A program made the translations under genes and the position numbers. From Neopararhizobium haloflavum (lineage in GTDB: Bacteria > Pseudomonadota > Alphaproteobacteria > Rhizobiales > Rhizobiaceae), in assembly GCF_002750855.1 (NCBI RefSeq), contig NZ_NWUC01000002.1, forward strand, positions 577,416-641,415: a stretch of DNA of 64,000 nt, given 5' to 3'. Below are positions 4,707-43,288 of the stretch, piece by piece (position 1 is the first letter of the stretch; every line of letters starts with the position of its first letter). The notes under the pieces are model-generated. The model ran no database searches and had not been told where the DNA came from. It worked only from the letters and a program-made list of their open reading frames with translations.

Positions 4707-5734
4707 GCGGCTTCTCCCCCGACCAGCATTTCGAGCGGTGCCTTGAAACAGGCGAAGCCGTGGCCATCGGCCGTGACTGTGGTTTCGGGGCGATGAGTCC
4801 GGCAATGATCATCGGCAAAGGGACAACGGGTGGCGAAGCGACAACCGGCAGGCATCAAAGCGGGCGGCGGGACCGAACCGGCGATCGTCATGAGGCGACC
4901 GCGACCGCCCGACAGCGAGGGCATGGAGCCCATCAAGCCAAGCGTATAAGGGTGTTGCGGGTCCGAGAACACCGCCTGCACAGTGCCCTTTTCGATCACC
5001 CGGCCTGCATACATGACGGCAACATCGTCGGCGATTTCACCGACCACGCCAAGGTCATGCGTGATCAGCAGAAGAGCGGCGCCGGTCTCTTCCTGAAGTT
5101 CACGCATCAGGTCGAGGATCTGCGCCTGAATGGTAACGTCGAGCGCCGTCGTCGGCTCGTCGGCGATCAGGAGCGCCGGGTCGTTGGCCAGAGCCATCGC
5201 GATCATCACTCGCTGACGCATCCCGCCGGAGAGTTGATGCGGATAGTCGTCGAGACGCTTCTCCGGGGCCGGAATGCGCACGCGACGGAACATCTCCAGA
5301 GCGCGCTCGCGCGCCTCGCTCCTGGAACAGCGACGGTGACGCCGAACCGCTTCGGCCACCTGTTCCCCGACCGTGAAGACCGGGTTCAGCGACGTCATCG
5401 GCTCCTGGAAGATCATGGCCATATCGCCGCCGCGCAGCTTCTCCATCTCACGCGTGGAAAGCGCCAAGAGCTCCCGCCCCTTGAAACGGACCGCCCCCTT
5501 TCTGATCGTGGCGGCCTTGCGTGAGAGAAGGCCCATAGCGGCCAGCGATGTCACGGACTTTCCGCAGCCGCTTTCACCCACGAGGCACAGGGTCTTTCCC
5601 TTCTCGATGGAAAAATCGACGCCATCGATCATGTCGATCGATTGGCCGTGGAACCGGATGGTCAGATCTTCGACAGCGAGAACCGGCTCAGCCGGCGCGC
5701 CGATCGATGCATCAGGCGACGTGTCAGCTTGCAT
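4703..5734 (-). CDS. peptide ABC transporter ATP-binding protein, DppD type
   Basis: A 343-residue ATPase with Walker [18 protein letters not shown], signature [15 protein letters not shown], Walker [15 protein letters not shown] and switch histidine [10 protein letters not shown]. The C-terminal motif [14 protein letters not shown] is the four-cysteine pattern of the DppD/OppD branch. It overlaps the end of the GntR regulator gene by 11 bases and the start of the DppF-like gene by four, so regulator and ATPases form one tight transcription unit. It heterodimerises with the DppF-like subunit at the cytoplasmic face of the permeases. Confidence 0.9.
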
Positions 5735-38832: not shown

Positions 38833-39309
38833 CTAAACGGTCCCTCGCCTCGACAACCCGTGATCGATCGAAAACCGTCCGGGCCCGTGCTTGATCAGCA
38901 GCAGGAGACACACCGCCCAGAGCCCATGGATCTGCCAGGCTTCCGGGTAGACGAAGACCTGAATGATCAGGGTCATGAGAAGCAGGGCAAACGCGGAAAG
39001 GCGCGTGGCAAGGCCGATGACGAGCAGGATCGGAAAGAAGTGCTCTGCGACGGTCGCCATCACGGCAGCCAAACGAGGGTCGATCAACGGCAACGCGTAT
39101 TCGTGCTCGAACAGGAAATAGGTCTGCGGCTTGATCGTCAGGCCATCGATCTTCGTGCGGCCGGACGCCCAGAACACCGAGGCGATAACCAACCGGGCTG
39201 CCAGCGATAGCAGGGAACTGGGTACGCTTTGCGCAACGCCGCGGCCCCGGCTGGACAGCATGCGAATGCGCGAGCCCCAATCCGAGGCTGTCGGAATCAA
39301 CTGCGTCAT
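38833..39309 (-). CDS. DoxX-family membrane protein of the bufferin operon
   Basis: A 158-residue DoxX/DoxD-like membrane protein with four helices ([50 protein letters not shown]). DoxX proteins regularly close gig/buf operons (the GigD position). Its start overlaps the bufC stop by four bases (ATGA). May serve in redox chemistry or copper handling at the membrane; role not established. Confidence 0.88.
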
Positions 39310-40046
39310 TGCCTTGTCTCCCGGCTGTCCTTTATGAGCGCGCCCCAATTGGCGAGTTGACCGATCACGGCAACGTCCCCGATCTCTTCGCCGTTGAGAG
39401 CCCGGCGCGGCAGCGCGTCGAACACATCGGCAACGACCTCTTCGATGAGGTGGAGATTGACGGTCATCGCCGGCCGCGCGATCAGCACGGTCTCAGCCTT
39501 TGTGGCGCGGATGCGCTCGGGCAACGAACCGGGCTGATTGGCAAGCCAGATGGTGAAAACGGGGAAGCGGGAGCGCAGCACCATCGCAGCCGGGTGGGGC
39601 CGCAGGCGGGGCCGGGCCTTGGCCAGATGCAGCATCGCTTCCGAAGACGTCAAAGGCACGGCATCGGCTGCATGATAGGCGTGAACGCGCAGCACTTCGA
39701 GCGTCGCGACATCCGCGAGATATGGGAGAGCCGATGCGGGTGGAAATCGCTGGATGAATCCGGGAAACCCATCACCGTACCGCATCAGGGCCGGCGACCG
39801 CGGCGGAGTTGCGAGCACGAAAGCGCGTGCCATGGCGCGGAAGAAATCAGCGCCGACCAATCGCCGAACGACAGGAAAGCTGGCCGCCAACTGTTCGACC
39901 AGTCCGGAGACGACGTTGTTTCGATGGACCGCGAAACGCTCCGCCTGCTGGCCGCCCGGGTCGGCGAGAACGCCTGCGGGCAATGCAACGTCCGGCCCAA
40001 TGACGGCCGCGGCGAAGGCTGCTTGAACATCAGCAAAGGACGGCAT
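39306..40046 (-). CDS. bufC: BufC / DUF2063-type partner of the MNIO enzyme
   Basis: About 246 residues. The N-terminal DUF2063 region contains [38 protein letters not shown], and the middle [21 protein letters not shown], the usual partner of DUF692 enzymes that delivers the precursor. The start at 40046 overlaps the bufB end by 17 bases and has AGGTGGGTG upstream. Works with BufB on the BufA precursor in the bufferin pathway, by homology. Confidence 0.88.
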
Positions 40047-40920
40047 GTGTTTCACCCACCTTGTTCGACGTTTCAGCATGACGTCCCGCCCGGTCCATGA
40101 CGTTGGCAGCCCGTTGCGCCTCGCCGAACAGGATCGGCCATTCGGGCACGTCGTTGTCCCACTCGATAAGCGTCGGCAGCGCTCCGCATTGCGCGATGAT
40201 CGTTTCGAACAGGTCCCAGACCGGATCGGCAACCGCAGCGGAATGCGAGTCGATCAGAAGCGTGGCGCCGTCCGACAGGCGATCGGCGTGATGTCCGCCA
40301 AGATGGACCTCACCCACCGCGCGGAGCGGGATGGCGGAAAGATACTCGCGCGCCGCTGTGCCATGGTTGACGGCACTGACGAAAACGTTGTTCAGATCAA
40401 GCAGCAATCCACAGCCGGTGCATTCGACAACCGCGCCGAGAAAATCGGTTTCGGTCATCGTGCTGTCGTTGAAGCTGAGATATGTCGACGGATTCTCGAG
40501 GAGCATCTGGCGACCGAGCAGATCCTGCACCTCGTCGATATGGGCCGAGACCCAATCGAGGGTTTCCGCCGTATAAGGCAGGGGCAACAGGTCGGCAAAA
40601 TGGTTCTCGCCGTGGCTGGACCAGGCGAGGTGCTCGGAAAAACTCGCCGGCTGGTAGCGATCGCAAAGACGCTTGATACGCTGGAGATGGGAACGATCAA
40701 GAGGCGCCGGCGCACCGATATTCAATCCCACCCCGTGGATCGACAGAGCGAGGTCTTCGCTCAGACGCGATAGTTGCGCGTGTGGCGGTCCACCCTCGCC
40801 CAAGAAGTTCTCGGCGTGCACTTCGACGAAGGCAAGGTTGGGCCTCGTCCCGATAATGTCGGCGAAGTGTCGGGCCTTGAAGCCGACACCGACGCCCAAC
40901 GGCAATGCAGCGGGTATCAT
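40030..40920 (-). CDS. bufB: MNIO (DUF692) bufferin-maturation enzyme
   Basis: A 296-residue multinuclear non-haem iron oxidase. Metal-ligand segments are FVEVHAENFLG, SIHGVGLNIG, SEHLAWS, LLENPSTY, LLLDLNNVFV, GEVHLGGHH and LIEWDND. In bufferin pathways this enzyme converts precursor cysteines to thiooxazole-type groups, enabling copper binding. The start at 40920 has GGGAG nine bases upstream. Sits directly after bufA across a short hairpin. Confidence 0.93.
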   Translation of the reverse strand: MIPAALPLGVGVGFKARHFADIIGTRPNLAFVEVHAENFLGEGGPPHAQLSRLSEDLALSIHGVGLNIGAPAPLDRSHLQRIKRLCDRYQPASFSEHLAWSSHGENHFADLLPLPYTAETLDWVSAHIDEVQDLLGRQMLLENPSTYLSFNDSTMTETDFLGAVVECTGCGLLLDLNNVFVSAVNHGTAAREYLSAIPLRAVGEVHLGGHHADRLSDGATLLIDSHSAAVADPVWDLFETIIAQCGALPTLIEWDNDVPEWPILFGEAQRAANVMDRAGRHAETSNKVGETHAVLC

Positions 40921-40983: not shown

Positions 40984-41265
40984 TCAGGCGTCCCGCTCGA
41001 TCGGCTCGAGCGAGCCCATACCAAGTGGCGTCTCGATATCGGCGCAGGTGCCGGCCGGAACCAGCGTCCACGCATTGCCCTGATAGTCGGTCGTGGAGGT
41101 GCCGGCGCAGGTCGTGCCCGGTCCTGCGGCGCAGTCGTTCTCGCCAGCAAGCGAAACGCCGTAGCATTTCTCCATGTCCTCCTGGGCCATGCTGGGCGTG
41201 GCGGAAAGTGCCATGGCGACGGTGAGCGAACCAACGGCGACAAGTATGCGATAATCTGGCTTCAC
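40984..41265 (-). CDS. bufA: bufferin precursor peptide (DUF2282)
   Basis: A 93-residue exported precursor. Signal peptide [20 protein letters not shown] ends near AQA-like MAQ-ED. The core has four cysteines in the DUF2282 pattern: [19 protein letters not shown], then [16 protein letters not shown] and [10 protein letters not shown]. In Caulobacter and Legionella the family (BufA1/GigA) becomes a copper-sequestering modified peptide. The start is GTG with AAGGAGAG upstream. First gene of bufA-B-C-doxX, behind a SigF-type promoter. Confidence 0.9.
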
Positions 41266-41316: not shown

Positions 41317-41342
41317 TTCGTCGAAGATGGCGCCGGTGTTAC
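41317..41342 (-). promoter_or_regulatory. SigF-type promoter of the buf operon
   Basis: On the minus strand GTAACA (41342-41337) and CGAA (41320-41317) are separated by exactly 16 bases. This matches the Caulobacter SigF promoter pattern (GTAACC, about 16 bases, CGAA) as I recall it. It lies 52 bases upstream of the bufA start and is repeated exactly in two other places nearby. Confidence 0.8.
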
Positions 41343-41386
41343 AGCGCTCACGGCTTCGTGTTTTTCAAGTGATGCCTGGTGCGGAT

Positions 41387-41412
41387 GTAACAATCCGGTA
41401 CGCGGCAGCGAA
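41387..41412 (+). promoter_or_regulatory. SigF-type promoter of sigF-nrsF (autoregulation)
   Basis: GTAACA (41387-41392), 16 bases, CGAA (41409-41412) on the plus strand, the same architecture as the buf promoter and back to back with it. The -10 ends ten bases before the sigF ATG, so transcription would start almost at the start codon (leaderless or nearly so). Confidence 0.7.
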
Positions 41413-41421
41413 AGGAAGGCA

Positions 41422-41979
41422 ATGGTGGCCTTGGACGAGACGCGCCTGGCAGATCTTCTGCGCCGTGCAAACCGCGGCGATGCTGCCGCATACGCGGATT
41501 TCTATCGCACGCTACTTCCCGCCCTGAGGCAGATCGCCCACGGTGTGGTGAGAACTGTCGGTGGCCGCCCGTCGGACGTAGAGGACGTGGTGCAGGAAAC
41601 GATGATCGCAATCCATCTCAAACGTCACACCTGGCGTGAGTCCGAAATGGTCGGACCGTGGATACGCGCGATATCGCGCTACAAGTCGGTCGATGTCATG
41701 AGGCGTCGCGGACGCCACGGCGCGTCGGTGGACATAGACGTCGTTACGGAAACACTCGCTGCGCCGACGATCGAGGACCCGACAGCACGAACCGACCTGG
41801 AACGCTATGTCTCAAGACTGGGCGGCAAGCCGGGAGCGATAGTCAAGGCCATCGGTCTCGATGGCCAGGAGATTGTCGAGGTCGCCAGGCGGATGTCGAT
41901 GAGCGAGGGCGCCGTGCGCGTTGCGCTCCATCGTGGGCTGCGCAAACTTGCGGCGCTCAGAACACAGGAAGCGGATTGA
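41422..41979 (+). CDS. sigF: ECF sigma factor SigF
   Basis: A 185-residue extracytoplasmic-function sigma factor. Region 2 contains YRTLLPALRQIAHGVVRTVGG and DVEDVVQETMIAIHLKRHTW; region 4 contains QEIVEVARRMSMSEGAVRVALHRGLRKLA. ATG at 41422 has AAGGAAGG upstream. Followed three bases later by nrsF, its presumed membrane anti-sigma factor, and divergent from the bufferin operon, the same arrangement as in Caulobacter crescentus, where SigF answers copper and other metal or oxidative stress. Confidence 0.92.
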   Translation: MVALDETRLADLLRRANRGDAAAYADFYRTLLPALRQIAHGVVRTVGGRPSDVEDVVQETMIAIHLKRHTWRESEMVGPWIRAISRYKSVDVMRRRGRHGASVDIDVVTETLAAPTIEDPTARTDLERYVSRLGGKPGAIVKAIGLDGQEIVEVARRMSMSEGAVRVALHRGLRKLAALRTQEAD

Positions 41980-41982
41980 ACC

Positions 41983-42621
41983 ATGGAGACGGAAAAGCTG
42001 ATCGCGGCACTTTCGCAGGATGCCGCATTGCCGCAACGCTCCCTTGTGCAGCGCCAGCTTGCTGCCGGATCGATCGCCGTTGTCGTTGCCTTCTGCGCGT
42101 TCGCACTTTTCGTCGGTCCGAGAAGTGACATCGCCTCAGCGCTTGAGACGCCACGATTCTTGCTGAAGCCGGTATTGACGCTGCTGCTTTTCGCAGCCGC
42201 ATTTTTCGCCCTCGCACGCGCGATACGGCCCGGCTCCAAGCCCGGATCGGCGCAAGCCGCGCTGCTGATCGCGCCCGTTTTTCTTGGCATCGCAGTCATC
42301 ACGGAAATGACGATTGTCCCATCGGCCCAATGGGGCGAGAAAATGCTCGGTACGAACGCGATGCTGTGCCTGACCGTCATGCCGGCGCTTTCGTTCGGAC
42401 CGTTGATGGCCTTTCTCTGGTTCTTGCGGCAGGGAGCCCCGACCCATCCCGCCCGCGCCGGGGCGATCGCCGGCCTTGCCGCCGCCGGGCTCGGGGCCAC
42501 CTTCTATGCGCTTCACTGCACCGACGACAGCCCGCTGTTCGTCACCGTATGGTATCCCATGGCAACAGCGATCGTCGTTACGGTCGGGTCACTGATGGGG
42601 CGGCGGTTGCTACGCTGGTAG
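41983..42621 (+). CDS. nrsF: membrane anti-sigma factor NrsF (DUF1109)
   Basis: A 212-residue protein with six hydrophobic segments, DUF1109 family. N-terminal ALSQDAALPQRSLVQRQLAAG is the cytoplasmic sigma-binding part. Two cysteines, Cys129 (NAMLCLTVMP) and Cys179 (YALHCTDDSP), fall at the positions of the cysteine pair reported as required for signalling in Caulobacter NrsF. It should hold SigF inactive until metal stress modifies these residues. Confidence 0.88.
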   Translation: METEKLIAALSQDAALPQRSLVQRQLAAGSIAVVVAFCAFALFVGPRSDIASALETPRFLLKPVLTLLLFAAAFFALARAIRPGSKPGSAQAALLIAPVFLGIAVITEMTIVPSAQWGEKMLGTNAMLCLTVMPALSFGPLMAFLWFLRQGAPTHPARAGAIAGLAAAGLGATFYALHCTDDSPLFVTVWYPMATAIVVTVGSLMGRRLLRW

Positions 42622-42906
42622 GCGGATGGGCAGGTAACCATCTCGGCGACACGGAGCCATTCCGCCGGTTGGATTTTGTGCTCACATCGGCACTGCCACA
42701 TTTTGGCGTGCTGCCAACCCAATGATGCAATCAGGATGGGGGTTGACAGGTTCGTCATCCAATTTGGAATGATTGTTCCGGATCGGAAAGCGCTCGGCAT
42801 GAGCGTCAAGCACGAGGGAGACCCGGCCCAGATCAGCCGGCGCCCTGGGCCGGAAGGTCGCGCATATGCGGGTCAACAAGCTAGCGTTGGAGCTTCAGAG
42901 CGGATT
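42622..42906. other. no gene recognised between nrsF and the downstream hairpin
   Basis: This stretch, plus the hairpin that follows it, forms the 329-base gap between the nrsF stop and the convergent small gene. Small open frames here lack family similarity, good ribosome sites and consistent codon use. Nothing else is seen apart from a short imperfect dyad near 42759 (ATCCAATTTGGAAT). Confidence 0.5.
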
Positions 42907-42933
42907 GCATGGGCGAGACTTGCTCGCCCATGC
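42907..42933. terminator. hairpin terminator of the RFGDA small-protein gene
   Basis: GCATGGGCGAG pairs perfectly with CTCGCCCATGC (11 bp) around ACTTG, 18 bases after the stop of the small minus-strand gene. No T-run; likely a terminator by position and stability. Confidence 0.6.
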
Positions 42934-42950
42934 GTTGGCATCAGTCGAAT

Positions 42951-43202
42951 TCAGCGCAGTATCTGGGAACGCGGCGACGCGTCGCCGAAGCGATCATGAC
43001 CTCGTGCGGTCATGCCGCCGCGAGCGGGATCGGCAATGCCAATCGCGGCGGTAGGGGTATAGTCGATGCCCGGAGAGACGGTTTCAAAATTCGGCGCCGC
43101 ATCGCCGAAGCGATTGCTAGCACCATAGTCGCCGCTGTCCGAAGCGGAGACGCCTGCCAGTGGAATGGCTGCCAGGATCGTGGCTAGGATGATCGTTCGC
43201 AT
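42951..43202 (-). CDS. small exported protein with duplicated RFGDA motif, SigF-regulon candidate
   Basis: An 83-residue protein with a clear signal peptide (MRTIILATILAAIPLAGVSA, cleavage near VSA-SD). The mature part of about 63 residues has two copies of one motif: ASNRFGDAAPNF near its start and GHDRFGDASPRS near its end. No cysteine remains, so it is not a bufferin-type precursor. I do not recognise a family. AGGAGAACC precedes the ATG at 43202, and a GTAACA-N16-CGAA promoter identical in design to those of bufA and sigF lies about 60 bases upstream, so it is probably a periplasmic stress protein of the SigF regulon. Confidence 0.75.
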   Translation of the reverse strand: MRTIILATILAAIPLAGVSASDSGDYGASNRFGDAAPNFETVSPGIDYTPTAAIGIADPARGGMTARGHDRFGDASPRSQILR

Positions 43203-43262
43203 GATGGTTCTCCTGAATTGGGTTGGCTTGTCAGAAGCGGTTGTCCCGCATCTGCTATGGTC

Positions 43263-43288
43263 TTCGCCCACCCTGGAGCGTTTGTTAC
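43263..43288 (-). promoter_or_regulatory. SigF-type promoter of the RFGDA small-protein gene
   Basis: On the minus strand GTAACA (43288-43283), 16 bases, CGAA (43266-43263). Both boxes and the spacing are identical to the buf and sigF promoters. The expected transcript leader is about 55 bases. Confidence 0.8.

Follow-up and report, generated by a model that had tools for sequence, protein, structure and literature searches.

Divergent sigma factor and bufferin genes, together with their promoters, have already been published for Caulobacter (SigF) and Sinorhizobium (RpoE7), so the arrangement that we describe here is known. In Caulobacter crescentus, GTAACC-N16-CGAA precedes sigF and the bufferin operons, and the sigF promoter is responsive to SigF (PMC3511200). 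The partner protein NrsF has two key cysteines, as at the present locus, and the system responds to copper, a likeness predicted for the present locus (PMC3511200, PMC8224329). A sigF::Tn5 strain grows poorly with copper and the bufferin genes are copper-induced (PMC8224329). The Caulobacter regulon further includes a second bufferin operon and an MsrPQ-type pair, whereas the motif is absent at both PF00174 loci of the genome studied here, where we considered MsrP as a SigF target and rejected it for this reason.

In Sinorhizobium meliloti, the sigma/anti-sigma pair RpoE7–EcfR7 diverges in the same way from an operon with DUF692 and DUF2063 genes (SMb20530–SMb20527), and the promoters, as read from the published table, are GTAACA-N16-CGAA for SMb20530 and GTAACA-N15-CGAA for rpoE7 (PMC6180224). 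That account gives two RpoE7 promoters, and we noted no small exported protein gene among its targets. Fusions to the RpoE7 promoters showed no response to H2O2, Cd or chromate (PMC6180224), which leaves the inducing signal at our locus uncertain. Bradyrhizobium EcfF–OsrA has the same cysteines, C129 and C179, but different target genes and the motif GTAAC(g,a)-N14-15-(c,t)CG(t,a) (PMC3420878). Brucella BcrS–AbcS uses the same ECF16 promoter and has a small periplasmic protein gene as a neighbouring target, the operon for a methionine-rich peptide being under BcrS control through such a promoter (PMC8315932). That MXKDX peptide is methionine-rich and found with MsrQP (PMC8315932), whereas the small protein of our locus has three methionines and no TIGR02953 match. 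The published SigF, RpoE7, EcfF and BcrS promoters match the sites described below (PMC3511200, PMC6180224, PMC3420878, PMC8315932). The newer part is a third candidate target, which is new to us, the literature not having been specifically searched on that point.

The window, the whole 64,000-nucleotide stretch of DNA that was analysed, comes from Neopararhizobium haloflavum and contains the following features:

38833..39348, minus strand: DoxX-family membrane protein, start approximate (PF07681, E 4.9e-17)
39306..40046, minus strand: bufC, DUF2063 protein, start approximate (PF09836, E 2.9e-27)
40030..40920, minus strand: bufB, MNIO maturase (PF05114; NF050167 above cut-off)
40984..41265, minus strand: bufA, DUF2282 bufferin precursor, GTG start chosen (PF10048, E 6e-26)
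41317..41342, minus strand: SigF-type promoter, well supported, of the bufABC-doxX operon (score 21.5; 34% of related sites no higher)
41387..41412, plus strand: SigF-type promoter, well supported, of sigF-nrsF (score 26.0; 69% of 198 related sites no higher)
41422..41979, plus strand: sigF, ECF sigma factor assigned to ECF16 from its partner and promoter (Pfam Sigma70_r2 and Sigma70_r4_2 above cut-off)
41983..42621, plus strand: nrsF, membrane anti-sigma factor (PF06532, E 8.4e-53)
42951..43202, minus strand: small exported protein, 83 amino acids, no cysteine (signal peptide by eye)
43263..43288, minus strand: putative SigF-type promoter before the gene for the small exported protein (score 20.3; 25% of related sites no higher)

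The sigF product matches PF04542 and PF08281 above the Pfam cut-offs, and nrsF follows sigF after a gap of 3 bases, the order of ECF sigma factor and DUF1109/NrsF genes that marks the ECF16 group. With its preceding base, the sigF promoter reads TGTAACA-N16-CGAA (41386-41412), in agreement with the ECF16 own-operon consensus (PMC8315932). NrsF C129 and C179, numbered as in OsrA (PMC3420878), are invariant in 12 aligned sequences, including that from the window. This is the one NrsF gene in the genome; its product scores 96.8 bits against the NCBIfam equivalog NF042994 (anti-sigma-F factor NrsF), below the cut-off of 300, and so belongs to the NrsF family by Pfam and lies outside the NCBI equivalog group. 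bufA is the sole DUF2282 gene found in the genome, and its translation has, by eye, four cysteines past the signal peptide. With the MNIO, DUF2063 and DoxX genes alongside this precursor, the locus is a Buf1-type bufferin cluster with its SigF–NrsF pair. In a 2025 survey, too, Buf1 clusters, and not Buf2 clusters, are reported to contain sigma factor and NrsF genes (PMC12452194).

GTAACA-N16-CGAA occurs in the window at exactly the three places that the first-pass annotation had named, with the same boxes and the same 16-base spacing at 41317-41342 (-), 41387-41412 (+) and 43263-43288 (-), and the search of the full 4.17-Mb genome that it had called for returned only these three exact copies. 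It had judged such a cluster within 2 kb very unlikely to arise by chance, and shuffling bears this out: 100 dinucleotide shuffles of the window, with N14-18 allowed, gave a mean of 0.18 matches, and three matches were reached in 1 of the 100. Its likening of the sites to the Caulobacter SigF consensus is borne out by the published GTAACC-N16-CGAA (PMC3511200). Reading from the sequence, CGAA is separated by 51 bases from the likely bufA GTG (41265), by 60 bases from the ATG of the small exported protein (43202) and by only 9 bases from the first sigF ATG (41422), and the positions of all three sites fit promoters.

Looser patterns lose this discrimination. GTAAC-N17-CGAA has 11 matches in the genome, three of which, the same three sites, contain GTAACA (the notation (T/C)GTAAC-N17-CGAA is equivalent to GTAACN-N16-CGAA). 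The reversed control pattern has 31 matches (11 + 20), so the remaining eight are no more than chance. When up to two mismatches are allowed, the window contains 34 matches against 30.1 expected, which leaves only the exact form informative. GTAAC-N16..18-CGWA, with 45 matches genome-wide against 105 + 128 for its reversed control, has no power on its own.

We compared the locus with its relatives. Of 200 genomes sampled from the same family, 69 have an NrsF match at E 0.001, 67 of them over the Pfam cut-off. We fetched loci for 70 of the 81 NrsF matches listed, leaving out the window's own, weak, second or fragmentary matches, and added 80 named loci out of 479. These 150 loci, with SigF labelled in 146, comprise 145 distinct loci after removal of 5 duplicates, among which sigF was testable in 140 and bufA in 82. 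Defined for this purpose as GTAAC-N-N15/16-CG(A/T)A, the motif lies upstream of sigF in 124/140 and of bufA in 75/82 distinct loci, and was not found under this definition at 16/140 and 7/82, respectively; five permuted patterns together gave 2/140 and 0/82. The two genes are divergent in 80 of the 82 loci that have both. We therefore regard the sigF and bufA sites as well-supported SigF-type promoters on comparative sequence grounds.

The related sites also vary. Among the 124 sigF sites, 80 have a spacer of 16 bases and 44 one of 15; for the 75 bufA sites the figures are 58 and 17. The sixth base is A in 82/124 sigF sites (another base in 42) and 43/75 bufA sites, and CGTA replaces CGAA in 31/124 and 5/75. 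The strict pattern, which had been put forward for genome-wide searches, thus serves its own genome, where the exact form is informative, but is too narrow for the family and misses many promoters of relatives. Two related loci (L088 and L093) have bufferin operons with two DUF2282-like precursor genes in tandem. NrsF is absent from three other genomes of the window's genus (G024, G125 and G194), which also lack a close copy of the small exported protein and give weak alignment matches only; the locus is thus patchy and was possibly gained by transfer.

A weight matrix built from 198 sites of related loci (123 sigF and 75 bufA, with the window's genome excluded) gives 26.0 bits for the sigF site, 21.5 for the bufA site and 20.3 for the third, and the next site in the window scores 8.6. 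This ranking is not fully independent, as the matrix sites were picked by the same core pattern, which by itself accounts for part of the gap to sites that lack the core. The other core matches in this genome make a fairer reference: scored with flanks, the remaining CGWA matches with 15 or 16 bases after the sixth base, the range covered by the genome-wide scoring, reach at most 15.6 bits. The best of these (L256) lies inside a short, coding-looking frame (MAKGQQKGNKEARK...), and was rejected as a SigF promoter. In six single-base shuffles of the window, the top site scored between 10.4 and 18.1 bits.

The sigF promoter lies very close to its gene. If transcription starts 5-8 bases past CGAA, as the first-pass annotation supposed, the sigF transcript would begin at 41417-41420, only 2-5 bases before the first ATG. 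In Bradyrhizobium, the mapped ecfF start lies 6 bp past the -10 box and overlaps the annotated ATG, and a later start codon was proposed (PMC3420878). The short leader and this precedent favour GTG 41425 or TTG 41431, and the real SigF start may be one of these rather than ATG 41422. Among relatives, the -10 box is a median of 16 bases (n=124) away from the codon that aligns with the first sigF ATG of the window, and the corresponding median for bufA is 57 bases (n=75). The very short distance before sigF, kept in relatives, offers a testable feature of autoregulation.

The third gene is of a different kind. Its product contains the motif RFGDA(A/S)P twice, flanking IDYTPTAAIG, and has no Pfam, NCBIfam or PHROG match. 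A family alignment defines exported, repeat-like proteins with IDYTPTAAIG and RFGDASP motifs, matches to which occur at E 0.001 in 57 of 200 genomes of the host's family, often in multiple copies; many of the weaker matches span the N-terminal part only. In a set of 397 genomes of the order, matches occur in 25, the window's own included, the best outside the host's family having an E value of 3.7e-6. No close relative was found in the named genomes. We considered the protein as a second MNIO substrate, which we hold unlikely given that it has no cysteine and that no part for MNIO genes came to notice among its relatives elsewhere, and as an MXKDX peptide, which we rejected as it is not methionine-rich and has no TIGR02953 or other NCBIfam match up to E 0.1.

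Family members elsewhere are often beside C93 cysteine proteases. A paralogue in the same genome (58% identity over 43 residues) adjoins one of the five C93 genes of that genome, and a C93 (BTLCP) protease gene lies within about 3 kb in 8 of 30 sampled family loci (L221-L225, L230, L232 and L250); in L221 the family member occupies 1411-1824 and the C93 gene 1967-2626. This proximity suggests a relation of substrate or partner between the GDASP/IDYTP family and C93 proteases.

The promoter motif was found at none of 30 sampled family loci (L221-L250, the paralogue of the window's genome included), and of 27 loci fetched from the order-level search (L266-L292) one, L286, has a site, downstream of its weak small-protein match. 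Conversely, the gene occurs in none of the 150 sigF-related loci, with flanks of about 5-6 kb or in some cases shorter, so that the pairing of promoter and third gene is not conserved in these relatives and the gene looks like a lineage-specific recruit. Its score of 20.3 and start-compatible distance of 60 bases make it a plausible SigF target, predicted from this one sequence, and for the third promoter we favour a lineage-specific recruitment, with chance as the alternative. Of the proposed local SigF regulon of three genes, sigF and bufA are thus well supported and the third is plausible, without support from the relatives examined.

Other genes are also found at such sites. Among the relatives, 45 motif sites were assigned to neither sigF nor bufA, and a downstream frame is present at 30, several of which look like chance sites in unrelated genes. 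Ten of the 30 were checked against family libraries. Five lead to MXKDX peptides above the TIGR02953 cut-off, all pointing away from sigF at loci where no bufA is labelled; the remaining five lead to a DUF1223 protein, an MsrA, a BufA2 precursor followed by bufB and bufC, and two frames of no clear family. The site beside sigF therefore holds varied periplasmic defences, and the third gene of the window would be one more of these.

Taken with the described systems, the locus is likely to be a self-contained envelope-stress switch of the ECF16 (SigF–NrsF) type with three local promoters. At rest, NrsF would keep SigF at the membrane. By homology, metal or oxidant attack on NrsF C129 and C179 would release SigF, and free SigF would then bring RNA polymerase to its own promoter, to that of the divergent bufferin operon and to that of the third gene, all three being predicted to depend on it. 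The bufferin operon would yield a copper-chelating modified peptide, its maturation enzymes and DoxX; the third output would be the small exported repeat protein encoded beyond nrsF, whose gene probably joined the regulon in this lineage and would add one more periplasmic protein.

The third site could instead be a chance match in the intergenic region behind nrsF, with only the sigF and bufA sites real SigF promoters. Consistent with this, neither the site nor its gene is conserved beside sigF in the relatives examined, the base before its GTAAC is the minority base G (T or C in 93% of related sites, G in 5%), and the 18.1 bits reached by one window shuffle come near its 20.3. However, eight background matches in 4.17 Mb correspond to about 0.004 expected within 1 kb either side of the sigF locus, the score of the site falls among those of related sites, and its distance of 60 bases to the start codon is much like that at bufA; we consider coincidence unlikely. 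Recognition chiefly by a different ECF sigma factor, or by two factors, in which case the sites would define no SigF regulon, is in our view very unlikely: the Caulobacter sigF promoter does stay active without SigF (PMC3511200) and the second Bradyrhizobium factor EcfS allows possible cross-talk (PMC3420878), but a single NrsF gene is present here and most related loci have the same motif upstream of sigF. There is also scarcely any likelihood that GTAAC-N16-CGAA is part of a repressor or activator binding site rather than a sigma-factor promoter. Some other GTAAC matches in the genome are palindromic, such as GGTAACCAGAAGGTTACC (L002, 1501-1536), which lies between two divergent frames and looks like a candidate regulator binding site, whereas the three sites are, by eye, non-palindromic, their distances to the genes are compatible with transcription starts, and they agree with promoters for which RNA 5' ends have been mapped in Caulobacter, Sinorhizobium and Bradyrhizobium.

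Read as a SigF–NrsF switch, the comparison of about 140 loci supports the divergent SigF/bufferin promoter pair as a widespread compact metal or oxidant switch of the Rhizobiaceae and related families. It also gives a measure of how far the promoter pattern is fixed or variable, and adds one lineage-specific candidate target. More tentatively, and with more doubt than belief on our part, the GDASP/IDYTP repeat protein could represent a new class of protective periplasmic proteins under SigF control, recruited when one lineage gained a SigF promoter. If so, the sigF neighbourhood would be an exchange point for periplasmic defences that include bufferin, BufA2, the MXKDX peptide, DUF1223, MsrA and GDASP/IDYTP proteins.

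The BufA2 locus (L188) differs from the published pattern. Its BufA2-type precursor gene (4906-5184, minus strand; product above the NF050166 cut-off), together with bufB and bufC, points away from sigF-nrsF behind a motif site at 5298 that reads GTAAC-N16-CGTA, in contrast to the reported placing of sigma factor and NrsF genes in Buf1 and not Buf2 clusters (PMC12452194).
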